Shown: piece after piece, positions 2,474 through 26,786 of the stretch
Numbering within the stretch: the first letter of the stretch is position 1
Layout of the letters: every line of letters starts with the position of its first letter
Source of the DNA: a virus
Reading direction: 5' to 3' (one strand)
Length of the DNA: 27,311 bases
Virus record (IMG/VR): IMGVR_UViG_3300009106_000024
Span: 1-27,311 of that record
Position numbers and translations under genes: made by a program
The notes under the pieces: model-generated
Database searches by the model: none
Told to the model about the DNA's origin: nothing
The model's input: only the letters and a program-made list of their open reading frames with translations

Positions 2474-2935
2474 TTATCTTACCTTGTCTAAAAATACTTC
2501 AATGTCGTGTATCTCGTTGGGTACATTCGCCAATGAAAAACTTACAGTAATGCCTAACTTGTTTTGGTCTAACTCATTATATCCTCGACCATCATTCACC
2601 TTTACTTCTTCTAAAACAACTCTCGGTTCATAAATGGATATCACATCTTCTATTGCAGCCTGTAGTTCTACTTCCTTCAATGGAGTAAAGTTTTCAAATA
2701 GAGAACCATGAACCCCACCACCAATCTCTGGATGAAATGGTTTCTCTCCAGAATTGAGTAACACCAGATTTCGGACTGATCTTTTGACAGCCTGTATATC
2801 TGTAACCTTACTCACATCAGAGGATGTGGGATGCTTTGTAAAAAATAAGTTTAGGTCCTTATAGATGAAAGTACTTCTAGGACTCTCGTTTACTGCTTGG
2901 GCATCATCGTACCCTGTGTTATATGTAATAGGCAT
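2474..2935 (-). CDS. 25: Baseplate wedge protein gp25 (lysozyme-like fold)
   Basis: A 153-residue gp25-family protein, part of the sheath-initiating core of the baseplate. Family hallmarks are DLNLFF near residue 28, the DIQAVKRSVRNLVLLNSGEK segment, and GVHGSLFENFTP followed by an amphipathic helix and IYEPRV. No Shine-Dalgarno sequence precedes the ATG. Instead an exact TATAAATA late box lies at 2942-2949, leaving six bases to the start codon, so the predicted transcript begins one base before ATG. gp6 follows with no gap. Confidence 0.93.
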   Translation of the reverse strand: MPITYNTGYDDAQAVNESPRSTFIYKDLNLFFTKHPTSSDVSKVTDIQAVKRSVRNLVLLNSGEKPFHPEIGGGVHGSLFENFTPLKEVELQAAIEDVISIYEPRVVLEEVKVNDGRGYNELDQNKLGITVSFSLANVPNEIHDIEVFLDKVR

Positions 2936-2941
2936 ATTTAC

Positions 2942-2949
2942 TATTTATA
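2942..2949 (-). promoter_or_regulatory. T4-type late promoter box for gp25
   Basis: The minus strand reads TATAAATA, an exact match to the T4 late-promoter element recognised by the gp55 sigma factor. If it occupies -13 to -6 as in T4, transcription starts at 2936, one base before the gp25 ATG. Confidence 0.8.
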
Positions 2950-2956
2950 TCATTTA

Positions 2957-3541
2957 TTATTGGTTTCCACCACCACCCTCATCCGACCCACTGTCGTATG
3001 TAGTATCATCAACGTCTGTATTATTAGTATTACTATCTGCAGCGTTGTCTGTTGTAGTAGTACCTGTCGCAGCAGCAGCACTATCACTTTTCACTCCATG
3101 GAGACTACTACACCCATTGGGAATAGTCCAAGAACCAGCAGTACTATGAACAACTTTTACATTTGGACCATAGGCACACCCATTTTTAGAAAATCTAAAT
3201 GTTGCCCTGTTACCATTTGTCTGTCCTGAATAACTACCTTGCTCTCCATTCACTGTACAAGTTCCACCAATAACACCTATAAGAACAACCAACTTCTTAT
3301 TTTTCTCACTAATAGGTTTCCAACGTAAATTTCCACCTCCGCTTGCATGACCGCCCCCGCCACCCTTCTTCCTACCAGTTGTTTTCTTATGACTACCATC
3401 TGGTCTGTCAGGAAGAGTTACTCCCGCACTCTTATTCCAAGTACCATCAGTAAAGGCACCCAGACCAACATTATATTTGGCCGTTACACTTACCTCAGCT
3501 GAAGTGACTTTGACTGTAACTGTTGCTGAGATCAAAGACAT
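2957..3541 (-). CDS. Low-complexity protein between gp5 and gp25, probably tail-associated
   Basis: A 194-residue protein I do not recognise. The N-terminal third is beta-rich (alternating V/T/S). A Gly/Lys-rich linker with GGGGGHASGGG follows at about residues 60-70, then a middle domain with three Cys (near CTVNGEQ, NGCAYG and NGCSSL). The last 40 or so residues are an acidic Asn/Asp/Thr/Gly tail ending in GGGGNQ. The ATG overlaps the gp5 stop (TAATG), with a strong GAGGAGG ribosome site just upstream. Placement between gp5 and gp25 argues for a tail or spike-tip role. It lacks an obvious PAAR signature, so calling it a tip protein would be speculation. Confidence 0.75.
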   Translation of the reverse strand: MSLISATVTVKVTSAEVSVTAKYNVGLGAFTDGTWNKSAGVTLPDRPDGSHKKTTGRKKGGGGGHASGGGNLRWKPISEKNKKLVVLIGVIGGTCTVNGEQGSYSGQTNGNRATFRFSKNGCAYGPNVKVVHSTAGSWTIPNGCSSLHGVKSDSAAAATGTTTTDNAADSNTNNTDVDDTTYDSGSDEGGGGNQ

Positions 3542-6090
3542 TACTCTACCTCCTCGTTATGTAAATCTCTAATCTTTTCAGCATTCTTATTGAGGGCCAA
3601 ACCTGTTGATCCTGCAAAAGGATTCGTTTGTGGTTTACCCAAATCATCCATACCAACTGAGGGCCCGGTCATCTGCATCCAGTTTACATGAGTCGCATCA
3701 GAGAGTGCTCCCCAAGTACCTATATCGCCTTCGGCATTACTATAGGCTCCAGGTAGTGCGGCTGTCACAGAGTCTGCTGCTTTGAAAGCAAAGTTTACTC
3801 TGGCCTGTAATGTATTTCTAGACTTTGGTGAATCAGTTAGGTCTACAGTAGCCCCACCTTCATGTACGATAGCACCTCCAGGTAATTGTTGATTGCCGGC
3901 AAAGTCTGAACCAAATGCCATCCCTGCAAACGGATCACCGTGAGGTACTTTCAAAACTATTCTACCACCAGAAGCTCCTAATGCCTTTGACTCAAGATGT
4001 ATCAAACCACCAAAAGGTTCGTCTTGTCCACCCATACCATTATACCCAGTACCCACTTCTGTATCAGCAGCAAAACCATTGGCCAAGGCCTTGATCTGTG
4101 CACCATGAAGATTGATAGTATTTTCCAATGCCTCAATGTTTACATTATGTCCTCTGAGGTTCAAGTCTCCTTTGGCGTGTATGTCAATGTTGTGGTCAGA
4201 GACTAAACGAATATTCCATTTGGCTCCAACTGTCATTTGGTCATTCGCTCGTATCATCACTTCATCATCACCCGTCCAAAGTATCTTACCCTTTACATAA
4301 AGATAATCATCGTGAATGGTTAGATTGTGATTGTCTCCTACGACCTTTGTAGTTTTATTACCACTGTCATCAATCTCGTAATAGGTACCAGACCTATGTT
4401 CCTGATTGATTCTCTCTGCCCCAGGAGTATCATCATATTCCATGATGTGTCCTGACTCAGATTCATAAACATGGTTGTAAGGATATCGGGCGGCATTCGC
4501 TGAAGTAGGCTCACTCCAATAATGTGTCATTATTTCCGCAGTTCTCTCCCCACCACTAAAAGCATCTTTACCACCGTCAACAAACATACCATGACCTATG
4601 TTGATCCACTTCTCTCTTGTCTCTGCTCTCCGGGTTATACTCCAATGACCGTGAAGAAGAACAACACCCCCACCCTTATATTCGGAGAACTCGGGTGCAC
4701 CAAGTGGATAGTCCCAATCAGCAGTCGTGGCCATGGGATTAACTTTTACGTTAGCGGAATACGTTGTTAGATTTTTAGCACCCTTCTCTGTTCCCGGTCC
4801 AGAAATACAAGTACCATCGGCCGATCCTAAAACAATAGTAAATCCTGCCTTGGCTGTTCCAGAAACTTTGTTTGCCCGAAAACGTCTTCCATTTAGTTCT
4901 TGCATTCCCATCACACCAGAGATCATTATAACATCACCCGTTTCAAAAGGTTCAGTATGTCCTCCCTCTGTTGTAACTGTAATAGGAGCGGTATTTGTAA
5001 TATTGGTTATCTTCATACCACCCTTGGCCAGACGATTGATATCTTCTCTTGGAATAGCAACTCGTTCCGATCCCTTCACATCAGCGAACTTGCGTTGGCC
5101 TCCTATCTTACGACCAATAACTGCATCATCATATAACTTTTCTACTCTTTTATAAGTTGAAGGACCATAATGATCTTTGAGTTTATTTTTGGTAGTAAAA
5201 TATAAAGCCGGGTACGGTTGTCTATATTTTTTACTAACTTCTTTGAGGACAGGATAACTAATTTCGGCCCCATCAAAATAACCGGTACTAATAACATGAC
5301 CCAAGTTTATATTGGACATATTATCACTCTTACCAGTTTCAGTCCAGAACTTCTCTGCATCTTCAGGAGGACCTACCAGTCGTCTAGTAGTTCCATATGT
5401 TTCGTAAAGAACATCTGTATGGGTTAGGGTTGTAAAGTTTTTATCAACACCTTTAGGTAGAGCAAGAGCTTCATGTCTTGCTTTGGCATATGATGCGGCC
5501 GCCCCATAAAGTATCTCATCACCATACATCTTCATTCTATCAAAAGCACCATCACCCCAATTGGTATGTGTATCTACAAAATCTGCTTTGGGTGTAACAG
5601 TACCGGAACCTTGATATCTCCAAGAGTTTCTACCTGGGGGGGATGGAATTGTAGCCAACATGGATTCATCATTCAAATCAAAGAAACCATATTTACCATC
5701 CTTTCTAGCACTACCCCAACTACCTTTACCGCCACCACCACCTTTATGTTCTTCGCTTTCTCCTTGAGAAGGAAGAACATTTATACCAGGGAGAACACCT
5801 AGCACAAGCCATTCCTGTAGTAAGTCTGTATCACGACACATACAGATAACCCATACACCTTCTTCAATCCCTGGATGAGATTCACCAACACCCGAGTGGG
5901 TATGGCCTCCCACCGGGAGCATTACCTGGCTCCACGGCAAATCTTCTGTGGGAATTTTTTCAGTATCTTCTGTGTGAAACCCTAGTAATCGAACCCGAAC
6001 TCTACCTAACTTACTAGGGTCTTGACGAGATTCTACTACGCCCATTGCGAACGCAACTTTGTCTAAACCAAACCATCCTATATTATCCAT
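3541..6090 (-). CDS. 5: Baseplate central spike / hub protein gp5 (no lysozyme domain)
   Basis: An 849-residue spike protein. Residues about 8-105 match the gp5 OB-fold domain (VVESRQDPSKLGRVRVRLLG, then EEGVWVICMCRD and EWLVLGVLPG). A long middle part contains an insert near residues 370-430 with MISGVMGMQELNGRRF, resembling the small E1_FCCH-like domain of phage tail proteins. The C-terminal third resembles the VgrG/gp5 beta-helix (YESESGHIMEYDDTPGAERI, then HRSGTYYEIDDSGN). I see no T4-lysozyme domain, although T4 gp5 (575 residues) has one. No ribosome site precedes the ATG; an exact late box lies five bases upstream, so the mRNA may be leaderless. Confidence 0.9.
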   Translation of the reverse strand: MDNIGWFGLDKVAFAMGVVESRQDPSKLGRVRVRLLGFHTEDTEKIPTEDLPWSQVMLPVGGHTHSGVGESHPGIEEGVWVICMCRDTDLLQEWLVLGVLPGINVLPSQGESEEHKGGGGGKGSWGSARKDGKYGFFDLNDESMLATIPSPPGRNSWRYQGSGTVTPKADFVDTHTNWGDGAFDRMKMYGDEILYGAAASYAKARHEALALPKGVDKNFTTLTHTDVLYETYGTTRRLVGPPEDAEKFWTETGKSDNMSNINLGHVISTGYFDGAEISYPVLKEVSKKYRQPYPALYFTTKNKLKDHYGPSTYKRVEKLYDDAVIGRKIGGQRKFADVKGSERVAIPREDINRLAKGGMKITNITNTAPITVTTEGGHTEPFETGDVIMISGVMGMQELNGRRFRANKVSGTAKAGFTIVLGSADGTCISGPGTEKGAKNLTTYSANVKVNPMATTADWDYPLGAPEFSEYKGGGVVLLHGHWSITRRAETREKWINIGHGMFVDGGKDAFSGGERTAEIMTHYWSEPTSANAARYPYNHVYESESGHIMEYDDTPGAERINQEHRSGTYYEIDDSGNKTTKVVGDNHNLTIHDDYLYVKGKILWTGDDEVMIRANDQMTVGAKWNIRLVSDHNIDIHAKGDLNLRGHNVNIEALENTINLHGAQIKALANGFAADTEVGTGYNGMGGQDEPFGGLIHLESKALGASGGRIVLKVPHGDPFAGMAFGSDFAGNQQLPGGAIVHEGGATVDLTDSPKSRNTLQARVNFAFKAADSVTAALPGAYSNAEGDIGTWGALSDATHVNWMQMTGPSVGMDDLGKPQTNPFAGSTGLALNKNAEKIRDLHNEEVE

Positions 6091-6095
6091 TACAA

Positions 6096-6103
6096 TATTT
6101 ATA
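6096..6103 (-). promoter_or_regulatory. T4-type late promoter box for gp5
   Basis: The minus strand reads TATAAATA exactly. With T4 spacing the first transcribed base is 6090, the A of the gp5 start codon. It faces away from a weaker box for the plus-strand gene at 6126. Confidence 0.8.
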
Positions 6104-6111
6104 ATGAAAAT

Positions 6112-6119
6112 ACTAAATA
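6112..6119 (+). promoter_or_regulatory. Weak late-type box for the plus-strand gene at 6126
   Basis: The plus strand reads ACTAAATA, six of eight matches to TATAAATA, with six bases to the TTG start at 6126. The spacing matches the other late boxes in the window, which is the main reason to take it seriously. Confidence 0.4.
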
Positions 6120-6125
6120 TGAATA

Positions 6126-6350
6126 TTGAACGACCCTAACATAGAACTCCTATCAGAGTGTATTACTGATGCCCACAAACGTATAAAACTATACGAGATG
6201 TTACAGGGTGGACTATGGTATGCGATATTTCGTTCTAACTCCAATCAGGAAATTCTAAAAGAAAAAGAATTGATAGAGGAATTGGAGAGAATGAAATTAG
6301 ATGTTATAGAATGGGACCAGAAAGTCCGCAGACGCAGCAAGGCCCCCTAA
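6126..6350 (+). CDS. Small unknown protein, divergent from gp5
   Basis: A 74-residue, mostly helical and charged protein (LLSECITDAHKRIKLYEMLQ, then an EKELIEELERMKLDV helix and a basic RRRSK tail). No family recognised. An in-frame TGA lies six bases upstream, so the first usable start is TTG at 6126; the next in-frame ATG is near residue 24. There is no ribosome site, but a weak late box ends six bases before the TTG. The stop lies inside the 5' arm of a GC-rich hairpin and a bidirectional terminator follows at 6437. It is one of only three plus-strand genes here. Confidence 0.6.
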   Translation: MNDPNIELLSECITDAHKRIKLYEMLQGGLWYAIFRSNSNQEILKEKELIEELERMKLDVIEWDQKVRRRSKAP

Positions 6351-16397: not shown

Positions 16398-16426
16398 ATT
16401 GTATCAGGTATCTTATTGGTTGTCAA
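16398..16426 (-). promoter_or_regulatory. Sigma70-type promoter, leaderless, for the nuclease
   Basis: On the minus strand TTGACA (16426-16421), a 17-bp spacer and TACAAT (16403-16398; 5 of 6). The next six bases (TATATT) lead directly into ATG at 16391, the expected start of transcription. The promoter sits at the end of the upstream gene. Confidence 0.75.
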
Positions 16427-18845: not shown

Positions 18846-19070
18846 TCAGTAAAGACCGAGTTCCCCATTATAATAACGGGTAAAGTTGTCAAGGTCTGTC
18901 GGTGATTTGAATGTCAGGTCAAAAACGATGGCCCCGGTGTCAGTGGTATTAAAGTCTAACCAATCACTTGTAAAATTGAAGTGGTTGGCAAGATTTAATA
19001 AATCACTAACAAAGGTTTCGGTACAATGTATATTGTGAAACACAAAGGGGGTCGTATAAGTATCTGACAT
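18846..19070 (-). CDS. Unknown 74-residue protein, first gene of the early-type operon
   Basis: A 74-residue acidic protein with mixed structure (FHNIHCTETFVSDLLNLANH, then DTGAIVFDLTFKSPTDLDNF). It is the first gene after a perfect sigma70 promoter, about 42 bases downstream of the predicted transcription start, with a GAG-containing ribosome site. A promoter-proximal place implies strong early expression. No family recognised. Confidence 0.72.
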   Translation of the reverse strand: MSDTYTTPFVFHNIHCTETFVSDLLNLANHFNFTSDWLDFNTTDTGAIVFDLTFKSPTDLDNFTRYYNGELGLY

Positions 19071-23954: not shown

Positions 23955-24466
23955 TACGACACTACTTCACGGGCAAACTCCGATGCGACTTGACGGACAT
24001 ATTGTGGATCTAAAACTCGGATTTGTTTTTTATTGGCATTCAGATTTTCTTCGTATTCGTAATTTGTTATAGCCAATGCTCCAACATGATCGGAAGGAAC
24101 TGTAATCTTCTTATTAGTATCACCTGATGATTGTGCCGCCTCATAATGATGAACACCATTCACATTAGTATACTTTGCCTTTACAAATCGTTCCAAGTCT
24201 CGTAACCCCATTGGCCAATCGTAATAGGGGTCTACCACATCATTGGTCATAAGAATAATCCAATGTAGTTTAGCATCACCATACTGTTCATATGCTACAT
24301 CTTCTGGCCGTTGACCTTCCTTTACATCATACTTGGAGAATATGGAATTGTTATTCTGTACTGCCTTTTTTATTTTTACTCGTATCAGAAAGTCACGAAT
24401 ACTTTTAGTATTTTTGTTTCCAGTTACATCGTAATCTATCTTTGGAAATTTAGTAAAATAACTCAT
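23954..24466 (-). CDS. 53: Baseplate wedge protein gp53
   Basis: A 170-residue gp53-family wedge protein. The segment YDVKEGQRPEDVAYEQYGDA, then KLHWIILMTNDVVDPYYDWP, is the LysM-like core shared by gp53 homologues. The start overlaps the gp48 stop (ATGA), and the stop overlaps the hub start (TAATG). It joins the wedge to the hub in the assembled baseplate. Confidence 0.9.
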   Translation of the reverse strand: MSYFTKFPKIDYDVTGNKNTKSIRDFLIRVKIKKAVQNNNSIFSKYDVKEGQRPEDVAYEQYGDAKLHWIILMTNDVVDPYYDWPMGLRDLERFVKAKYTNVNGVHHYEAAQSSGDTNKKITVPSDHVGALAITNYEYEENLNANKKQIRVLDPQYVRQVASEFAREVVS

Positions 24467-25266
24467 AGGACTACATCACCTCCTGCACCCATACCAAAGT
24501 ACGGATCTCTAAAATCCTGTTGAGTAAGGATTTCCATTTCTTTGAAGGCCAATGATATGTCTACCTGTGTTGGTAAATCATTATCAGAAAACACATTGAA
24601 TTTGTCTCCACCATACTTGATACCCACACTAGTCAATACACTCATCTTGAAATGCATCTCTGCAATATTTCTAGGTTGAATGGTAATATCAAAAACATGA
24701 GGAACATTATATAAACGTAGTACATCACCGCCACCAGTCAGTAGTTCTGGAGATGAATAAAACTTAAAGAAATTACAAATAGTCAAAATAATTTGAGAGT
24801 CTGTCCTGTTTCTTGGTCGTAACGAGAAATTAAAAGAATGATCCCTATATCCAGGACCACTATACGATATATATGCCTGTTCAAGAGCTCGTGAAGATAC
24901 ACCACCAATCCCAAGCATACCTTCTGCCCGAGCCTTTACGATATCCATAGTACCAGATACACTCTCAACCTTTTCAACACCAGCATTACCCTTCTCAGAT
25001 TTTGGTTCTGCCTTCCCACCATCTTTACCCATAAACAAACCCAATATTTGAGATCCGGCGGCTTGCATTTCATTTGCTGTCGATTCATCCCAACCCTGTT
25101 GATAGGTAGTCTCTAGACCTTCTGGTGGTACTGGTAACCAGGCCCAATTACCAGTGGCCTGTGTTTTCACTTGACCAATAGCCGATTCTGATAATATTTT
25201 ACGAGCATGGAACCCTATCATGGGCATACCGTCCTCGTATTTAGATGGATAACTTGTTGATCCCAT
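24463..25266 (-). CDS. 48: Baseplate tail-tube cap protein gp48 (or gp54 type)
   Basis: A 267-residue gp48/gp54-type protein that caps the hub and starts the tail tube. The C-terminal half is characteristic (AYISYSGPGYRDHSFNFSLR, RPRNRTDSQIILTICNFFKF, then PTQVDISLAFKEMEILTQQD). T4 gp48 is 364 residues, so this version is shorter. A late box lies at 25292-25299, and GAGGG precedes the ATG, so unlike its late neighbours it has a normal leader of about 20 bases. It heads the operon reaching DUF465. Confidence 0.85.
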   Translation of the reverse strand: MGSTSYPSKYEDGMPMIGFHARKILSESAIGQVKTQATGNWAWLPVPPEGLETTYQQGWDESTANEMQAAGSQILGLFMGKDGGKAEPKSEKGNAGVEKVESVSGTMDIVKARAEGMLGIGGVSSRALEQAYISYSGPGYRDHSFNFSLRPRNRTDSQIILTICNFFKFYSSPELLTGGGDVLRLYNVPHVFDITIQPRNIAEMHFKMSVLTSVGIKYGGDKFNVFSDNDLPTQVDISLAFKEMEILTQQDFRDPYFGMGAGGDVVL

Positions 25267-25285
25267 ATCGGGCCCTCTATAAACT

Positions 25286-25293
25286 TATAAGTA
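25286..25293 (+). promoter_or_regulatory. Late-type promoter box for gp4
   Basis: The plus strand reads TATAAGTA, seven of eight matches, ending six bases before the gp4 ATG. It overlaps the minus-strand box of gp48 by two bases. Confidence 0.65.
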
Positions 25294-25299
25294 TTTATA
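25292..25299 (-). promoter_or_regulatory. T4-type late promoter box for gp48 operon
   Basis: The minus strand reads TATAAATA exactly. With T4 spacing transcription starts near 25286, leaving about 20 bases before the gp48 ATG with a GAGGG ribosome site. Confidence 0.8.
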
Positions 25300-25749
25300 A
25301 TGAAAAGACACAAAGCATACAAAGGTAAGTTCCACCCAGGCAACCCTAAAAAGTATAGAGGTAATGTGAGAAACATTATCTATAGGAGTATGTGGGAAAG
25401 GAAACTTATGGTACAACTAGACCGAAACGAAAAGGTTATTGAATGGGGTAGTGAAGAAATCATTATACCCTATAGGTCTCCTTTGGATGGGAAGGTGCAT
25501 CGTTACTTCCCAGACTTCTATGCTAAAGTGATCGCCTACGATGGCAGTATCAAAAAATTGATTATAGAGGTGAAACCTAAATCACAGACACGGCCGCCCA
25601 AGTCTAATCCAAAAAGAAAAACTAAAGCCTGGGCCTTTGCGGTAAAAGAGTATGCAAAGAATCAAGCGAAATGGGAATCAGCTGTTGCTTTTTGTGAAAA
25701 AAATGATATGGAGTTTAAGATTATGACCGAAGATACTTTGGGTTATTAA
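25300..25749 (+). CDS. 4: Head completion protein gp4
   Basis: A 149-residue gp4-family head-completion protein, whose fold is related to TnsA-type endonucleases. YRSMWERKLMVQLDRNEKVI at about 28-47, then EWGSEEIIIPYRSPLDGKVH, YFPDFYAKV and a KLIIEVKPKSQ strand, give the Glu...Asp...ExK layout typical of this group. It acts at the final step of head filling. There is no ribosome site; a late box ends six bases before ATG, predicting a transcript starting one base earlier. It is one of three plus-strand genes. Confidence 0.92.
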   Translation: MKRHKAYKGKFHPGNPKKYRGNVRNIIYRSMWERKLMVQLDRNEKVIEWGSEEIIIPYRSPLDGKVHRYFPDFYAKVIAYDGSIKKLIIEVKPKSQTRPPKSNPKRKTKAWAFAVKEYAKNQAKWESAVAFCEKNDMEFKIMTEDTLGY

Positions 25750-25755
25750 TAAATA
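25748..25755 (+). promoter_or_regulatory. Late-type promoter box for the HtrA-type protease
   Basis: The plus strand reads AATAAATA, seven of eight matches (the NATAAATA form reported for marine T4-like phages). It ends five bases before ATG at 25761, so transcription should begin at the A of the start codon. It overlaps the gp4 stop codon region. Confidence 0.7.
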
Positions 25756-25760
25756 ATGTA

Positions 25761-26786
25761 ATGAGAAAAATTTTACTTGCCTTTTTGTTTGTATTCAGTT
25801 GTTCTGCTGTAGCTCTAACTCCTGAAAATGTAAACAAAGCCCTGGATGCCACCGTAATGGTGACAGGGGAGGATAGTGGTTTTGGATCTGGTGTGGTTAT
25901 AAGTGAGGACGGCCTTATCGTCACTAACTATCATGTAATACATAGAATCGACCCTGTAATATATTTTTACAACCCTAAAGATTTGAATTACTATTCGGCA
26001 GATATTGTAGGTATTGATCCTGTTGCTGACTTGGCCCTATTGAAGGTCAATGTACCGGATGAGTATCTACCTCTAGTATATCTTGATATAGATACGGAAG
26101 TTGAGTTAGCAGAAGAAGTTATTGCTATTGGACATCCTATGGGACTACAGTGGTCAGTGACAAAAGGAATCATCAATCATCTAGAACGGCCTGGAAAGAT
26201 AACACCTTATGTCAATGTTATACAGCACTCCGCTATTATAAACAGAGGAAACTCTGGAGGGCCCCTGGTCAATACTGATGGCGATATCGTAGGTATCAAT
26301 ACTTACATTCTATCTCCTAAAGGACAGTGGACAGGAGTAGCCTATGCTGTTCGTAGTGATACAGTATCCGAATCTATAGAGCAAATGAAAAATACTGGTG
26401 AAGTAATATACTCCGCAACAAAGATGGCAATAAGAAGTCTAAATGAATGGTATCTTACTCAACTAATAGAGGAGTTTCCTGAGGAAAAGTTACCCACAAA
26501 TATATTTGGTCTAATAGTAACAGATGTGGAAGAAGATGATTATGCCTATGAACAAGGCATTAGAAACCTTGACGTTATTATTGCCGTGAATGGTGAACCA
26601 GTAAACTATCTAGACGAACTCAAACAAGTTATGAAAGGTCTATCTCCTGATGATATAGTAACACTTCTCATCATAAGAGATTCCCATATCCGAAGTATGC
26701 CTTATAAAATAGGCACACTAGACTTCGATACCTATATGGAATTCTATGATAGGGGTGAGGATTCTAATACGCGACAGCCACGTTAG
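25761..26786 (+). CDS. Exported HtrA/DegP-type serine protease
   Basis: A 341-residue S1C protease with an N-terminal signal (MRKILLAFLFVFSCSAVALT); C14 could make it a lipoprotein, but the -2 Phe is unusual. The catalytic triad is His58 in TNYHVIH, Asp90 in VADLALLKV and Ser165 in RGNSGGPLV. One C-terminal PDZ domain lies at about 240-330 (FGLIVTDVEEDDYAYEQGIR, then DVIIAVNGEPVNYLDEL). It likely works outside the cytoplasm. There is no ribosome site; a late box gives a leaderless message. Its 3' end overlaps the converging tape-measure gene by 23 bases. Confidence 0.9.
   Translation: MRKILLAFLFVFSCSAVALTPENVNKALDATVMVTGEDSGFGSGVVISEDGLIVTNYHVIHRIDPVIYFYNPKDLNYYSADIVGIDPVADLALLKVNVPDEYLPLVYLDIDTEVELAEEVIAIGHPMGLQWSVTKGIINHLERPGKITPYVNVIQHSAIINRGNSGGPLVNTDGDIVGINTYILSPKGQWTGVAYAVRSDTVSESIEQMKNTGEVIYSATKMAIRSLNEWYLTQLIEEFPEEKLPTNIFGLIVTDVEEDDYAYEQGIRNLDVIIAVNGEPVNYLDELKQVMKGLSPDDIVTLLIIRDSHIRSMPYKIGTLDFDTYMEFYDRGEDSNTRQPR

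Follow-up and report, generated by a model that had tools for sequence, protein, structure and literature searches.

Late promoter boxes five to six bases before the start codon mark a probable set of leaderless late genes in a marine T4-like phage lineage

Among the late genes of one lineage of marine T4-like phages, a conserved subset is very probably leaderless, and others in this lineage have the same promoter box followed by a 15–45 nt leader with a Shine-Dalgarno (SD) site. The stretch of DNA analysed here (the window) is a virus fragment of 27,311 bases with T4-type structural genes, i.e. gp6, gp25, gp5, gp48, gp4 and an HtrA-like protease (Table 1). As part of the same highly probable reading, it is a piece of such a phage and its late genes are transcribed from TATAAATA promoters of the gp55 type. 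Judged by gp25 and gp6, its closest relatives in culture include the Pelagibacter phages HTVC008M and Mosig and the Methylophilales phage Melnitz, with about 41–50% protein identity. A search of bacterial genomes with gp6, made to find the host, gave no match.

Table 1. Late genes, promoter boxes and gaps of the window.
Feature	Position	Strand	Remarks
gp25, baseplate wedge subunit	2474..2935	-	PF04965 8e-11, phrog_261 5e-37
gp25 late promoter box TATAAATA	2942..2949	-	exact; 5–7 nt to ATG kept throughout the putative leaderless gp25 clade
GTAAAT, six-base box-to-ATG gap of gp25	2936..2941	-	predicted RNA +1 = 2936, ATG at +2 (T4 geometry, PMC1524935)
gp5-like baseplate hub / tail lysozyme	3541..6090	-	PF06714, phrog_430 1e-66
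gp5 late promoter box TATAAATA	6096..6103	-	exact; TTGTA (five bases) then ATG
Weak, doubtful box ACTAAATA	6112..6119	+	two mismatches; six bases to TTG; recurs in L004
ORF 6126, 74 aa, TTG start	6126..6350	+	96% identical protein in L004
gp48-like baseplate tail tube cap	24463..25266	-	phrog_230 3e-29
gp48 late promoter box TATAAATA	25292..25299	-	exact; 25-nt gap with GAGGG, leadered class
Weak box TATAAGTA of gp4	25286..25293	+	one mismatch; six bases to ATG; overlaps opposite-strand gp48 box
gp4, head completion / head closure	25300..25749	+	phrog_218 1e-57
HtrA box AATAAATA	25748..25755	+	ATGTA (five bases) then ATG; overlaps gp4 stop
HtrA-like serine protease with PDZ domain	25761..26786	+	PF13365 5e-28, PF13180 8e-10

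The T4 late box spans positions −13 to −6 from the RNA start (PMC1524935). Thus a gap of 5 nt between box and start codon puts the A of the ATG at +1, and a gap of 6 nt puts it at +2. Given the T4 rules, the geometric argument of the first-pass annotation is sound. An ATG at this distance would have the RNA begin at the A of the ATG or one base before it, which gives a leaderless mRNA, and the ribosome would bind the 5′-terminal AUG directly, without SD pairing. In gp25 and gp5 the 5–6 nt gaps place the start codon within about 2 nt of the RNA start predicted from T4 geometry, as is characteristic of leaderless genes. Most spacings in the window clade are 6 nt, for which T4 rules predict a leader of a single base instead of none at all. 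The boxes themselves are of the T4 late type: gp25, gp5 and gp48 have the exact sequence, boxes are enriched near gene starts in the lineage, and other bases are allowed at −13. The HTVC008M annotation includes a late sigma factor and a clamp. Among the 85 leadered boxes, 63 have an A as the sixth base after the box and none has a C, which agrees with a T4-like RNA start at those promoters.

The exact TATAAATA box is found three times only in the window, before gp25, gp5 and gp48. On the minus strand, positions 2949–2933 read TATAAATA (2949–2942), GTAAAT (2941–2936) and ATG (2935–2933). The first-pass annotation had described a late box close to the start of five genes, and the spacings it gave are numerically right (gp25 6, gp5 5, ORF 6126 6, gp4 6 and HtrA 5 nt), but only gp25 and gp5 have the exact box and the other three are inexact. 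Boxes with one mismatch are no more numerous in the window than in shuffled sequence and are rejected at face value; variants are trusted only if enriched near gene starts. The HtrA box AATAAATA is a supported variant because in related genomes NATAAATA boxes accumulate at a spacing of exactly 5 nt, and a leaderless HtrA mRNA is plausible; no HtrA homologue was found among the related loci. The gp4 box TATAAGTA is a weakly supported variant whose spacing is not conserved (7, 10 or none in pelagimyophages), and gp4 is perhaps leaderless. Both the gp4 and the ORF 6126 cases may be due to chance. ORF 6126, which recurs together with its box in L004, matches no known family among Pfam/PHROG-type profiles. 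Its start codon is TTG, a poor start for leaderless translation; gp25, gp5, gp4 and HtrA all start with AUG.

The absence of a ribosome site holds for all five genes, where the best anti-SD pairing lies between +0.9 and −2.2 kcal/mol (gp25 +0.6, gp5 +0.9, gp4 −1.0, HtrA −2.2). The good sites ascribed to neighbouring genes are present at the genes at 3541 (−13.1) and 24466 (−11.6), at gp48 (−6.3) and at gp6 (−3.9), but not at the gene at 626 (+1.0) or the 517-aa gene (−1.7). The annotation of gp48 as an exception, with a leader that carries GAGGG, is confirmed.

Two arrangements in the window involve divergent boxes. The sequence TATTTAGTA (6104–6120), a possible divergent CTAAATA late box, lies some 10 bp upstream of the box of gp5. 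It is also kept upstream of gp5 in contigs G001, G002 and G005, even where the gene found there is a same-strand tRNA gene and not a divergent one. The gp48 and gp4 genes are divergent late genes with overlapping boxes in a gap of 33 bp (25267–25299).

Spacings of late boxes were compared with random placement. Spacing was taken from the exact box to the first ATG after it, on our own open reading frame calls, which favours short gaps; the permuted controls, 55 other octamers of the same composition, share this bias. Six contigs of the window clade contain 33 exact boxes, with four at 5 nt, six at 6 nt and 17 at 15–35 nt, thus 10 of 33 are 5–6 nt from an ATG versus 0.24 expected from permuted boxes. 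A group of pelagimyophage type (HTVC008M, Mosig, Melnitz, G003 and G008) displays 10 exact boxes at 5 nt (0.40 expected) and 40 at 15–35 nt. T4 has none at 5–6 nt and 19 at 15–35 nt. When the count was widened to the NATAAATA motif, with G010 and cyanophages added, 38 boxes were found at 5–6 nt versus 0.54 expected in 12 marine genomes or contigs. Boxes of this motif at 5–8 nt were not found in T4, Syn9, S-PM2, phiM12 or LHE287, and there is one each in P-HM2 and P-SSM2.

The spacings form two separate classes. After removal of duplicates, the window lineage and the pelagimyophages have 42 boxes at 5–8 nt, 31 of them at exactly 5, and 85 boxes at 15–45 nt, with five at 9–14 and four at 0–2. 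The nearly empty 9–14 nt zone would make sense if neither mode of initiation could use a leader only a few bases long. SD-like sites (anti-SD pairing of −4 kcal/mol or better) accompany 5 of the 42 close boxes versus 76 of the 85 distant boxes (Fisher 4e-18); the close set spans at least 10 different gene families, and orthologues within these counts are not independent. The leadered class includes gp48 of the window and gp8-like and tail-fibre-like genes in G001 and G005. Because this class exists, the first-pass proposal of leaderless translation for promoter-proximal late genes fails as a general rule: many late promoters of the same lineage lead to 15–45 nt leaders with strong SD sites. 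That annotation had also held that long leaders at other late genes would make the close cases a coincidence. Such genes do exist, but coincidence does not follow since the close cases are conserved and form a separate peak.

Among IMG/VR relatives and reference phages, 32 gp25 rows (which include a few copies of one contig) have a box at 5–8 nt and 59 have one at 15–33 nt, with none between, and nearly all of the latter have an SD-like site. In a gp25 tree of 75 rows the close-spaced, putatively leaderless state fills one clade (20 rows, one of which ends before the box; support 98/99), together with the HTVC008M/G010 pair and Mosig. The starred branches of the tree force at least two changes of state; the alignment is short and the deep forks are weak. 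Eleven relatives retain the gp5 box with its 5–6 nt gap; three of these match the window exactly, and the arrangement is kept even beside unrelated upstream DNA, in some cases a tRNA-Asn gene. In the more distant G007, gp5 has a 22-nt leader with GAGG. The different spacings of gp25 and gp5 among relatives thus indicate that genes switch between two discrete states. Leaderless late mRNAs for gp25 and gp5 are well supported by the geometry, the lack of an SD site, and the conservation of box and spacing where the upstream DNA is otherwise unrelated.

In HTVC008M, 11 genes have GenBank starts exactly 5 nt after a box. Those with NATAAATA are a 2OG-Fe oxygenase, CsgF, a tape-measure-like gene, gp2, gp48, gp25, a baseplate gene, a regulator and a small open reading frame at 75559; gp4 (TCTAAATA) and gp3 (ACTAAATA) have related boxes. 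Terminator-like hairpins with T runs precede the boxes of the oxygenase and of the 75559 open reading frame. gp2 and gp4 diverge, with 26 bp between their ATGs (18917–18942) and two back-to-back boxes inside. Leadered boxes precede gp8, gp20, gp21 and a second baseplate gene; gp18, gp19 and gp23 lack a box within 50 nt and have SD sites. This genome alone suggests that the leaderless set would consist mostly of minor proteins (gp2, gp3, gp4, gp25, gp48). The mode of initiation may therefore set protein dose, leaderless for minor proteins and SD-led for gp18, gp19 and gp23. A spacing of 8 nt, seen at HTVC008M gp13 (59698–59714) and Mosig gp25 (89816), is the usual 5 nt with an additional codon (ATT or GTT) ahead of the ATG, which hints that the start is shifted or that a non-ATG codon serves as leaderless start.

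The promoters could be real and yet lie next to the ATG through compression of intergenic regions, the protein being made mainly from read-through mRNA of upstream genes. The genes are tightly packed, late operons are present in all these phages, and a same-strand gene is located just upstream of gp25, which could also be carried on read-through transcripts. However, compression predicts a spread of spacings and not a sharp peak at 5 nt beside a nearly empty 9–14 zone. It also fits poorly with the HTVC008M boxes directly after terminator-like hairpins and with the divergence of gp2 and gp4 from 26 bp, and a read-through mRNA of a close-box gene would likewise lack an SD site. This explanation is considered unlikely.

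Less likely still is an RNA start farther upstream than the T4 rules give, or another promoter, with the AT-rich box acting as an S1-type enhancer of ribosome binding in place of an SD site. Late-promoter RNA starts were mapped in T4, a different phage, and such hosts may often initiate without an SD site, since among genes over 120 aa in a 294-kb SAR11 contig (L415–L429) only 23% have an SD-like site (HTVC008M 56% and T4 67% under similar counts). Against this, the leadered class has its box 15–45 nt away together with an SD site, as a promoter would be, and the base at its predicted start is preferentially A and never C. The box sequence itself is required, as permuted octamers of the same composition give no peak. 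Chance in AT-rich DNA, which the frequency of one-mismatch boxes leaves as an account of gp4 and ORF 6126, is scarcely credible for the pattern as a whole in view of the 38 close boxes, their conservation in diverged relatives and their absence at 5–8 nt in T4, which is also AT-rich; for gp25 and gp5 it is rejected by the permuted boxes.

Leaderless starts may extend beyond the late genes, as close ATGs are also found after sigma-70-like sites. In the pelagimyophage group 11 of 70 such sites near gene starts have an ATG 5–8 nt after the −10 element, versus 0 of 860 control sites. The window itself has a case of this kind at 16426–16389 (minus strand), TTGACA-17-TACAAT-6-ATG, at the start of a 164-aa gene, so that an early gene may be leaderless too. 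The SAR11 contig has seven sigma-70-like sites near starts, a small number, with none at 5–8 nt.

A possible link is to bS21, a protein that contacts the SD/anti-SD helix and whose phage-encoded form has been linked to late translation (PMC9723584). S21 is core to pelagimyophages, which differ in this from cyanomyophages (PMC7029224). It is encoded in HTVC008M at 91228 (L201:11228–11431), G010 (64037), Mosig (9983), Melnitz (35461) and the 64-kb fragment G003 (63133). The closest bacterial matches of the HTVC008M protein include Pelagibacteraceae (57%) and Albidovulum (54%). A search did not find bS21 in T4, Syn9, P-HM2, P-SSM2, S-PM2, KVP40, phiM12 or LHE287, and the scan for boxes, which covered all of these except KVP40, gave at most one per genome at 5–8 nt. 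Nor was it seen in the other fragments of 20–74 kb, including the window. We hypothesize, as a speculation with a rather low probability, that in pelagimyophages and related phages one late promoter serves two translation programmes, leaderless for minor and SD-led for bulk virion proteins, with the balance tuned by the phage's own bS21. The association with leaderless genes is a lead that is confounded by ancestry.

If the leaderless reading is correct, promoter and gene start form one element in abundant ocean phages, the mode of initiation may govern the dose of minor and bulk virion proteins, and promoters and gene starts in these phages should be annotated anew. A study of pelagimyophages failed to find late promoters with cyanophage methods (PMC7029224), and the leaderless arrangement may be part of the reason. 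Searches of open-access literature, which covers few of the subscription papers, found no description of leaderless late genes from T4-type (T4/gp55) phages; this does not prove novelty.

Late transcription in T4 (gp55/gp33/gp45) is a textbook system with SD-led mRNAs. The window lineage resembles it in the eight-base box, in the preference for T or another base at −13 and in the structural genes downstream. Unlike the window lineage, T4 has no box 5–8 nt from an ATG, and its own boxes lead to gaps of 13–45 nt with SD sites. The 32 exact boxes counted in T4 equal the published number of perfect late sites (PMC2988020). Late promoters of T4-like cyanophages, NATAAATA, belong to the same box family (PMC2984593), but four cyanophage genomes have 86 boxes at 15–45 nt and two at 5–8 nt, both before small open reading frames. 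Many leaderless non-early (middle/late) mRNAs are found in the lytic Thermus phage phiYS40, where shifted levels of IF2 and IF3 are thought to help (PMC3594737), and hosts of the Thermus phylum make wide use of leaderless genes (PMC3160421). phiYS40 however belongs to another phage family, with a different host and promoters that are neither T4-type nor gp55-dependent. In Deinococcus-Thermus and other bacteria, a −10 region adjoining an open reading frame gives rise to leaderless mRNA (PMC12340547, PMC3160421). The late boxes described here are similar in that a promoter element lies a few bases before the start codon, but those of bacterial genomes are promoters of host sigma factors and not a phage late promoter.
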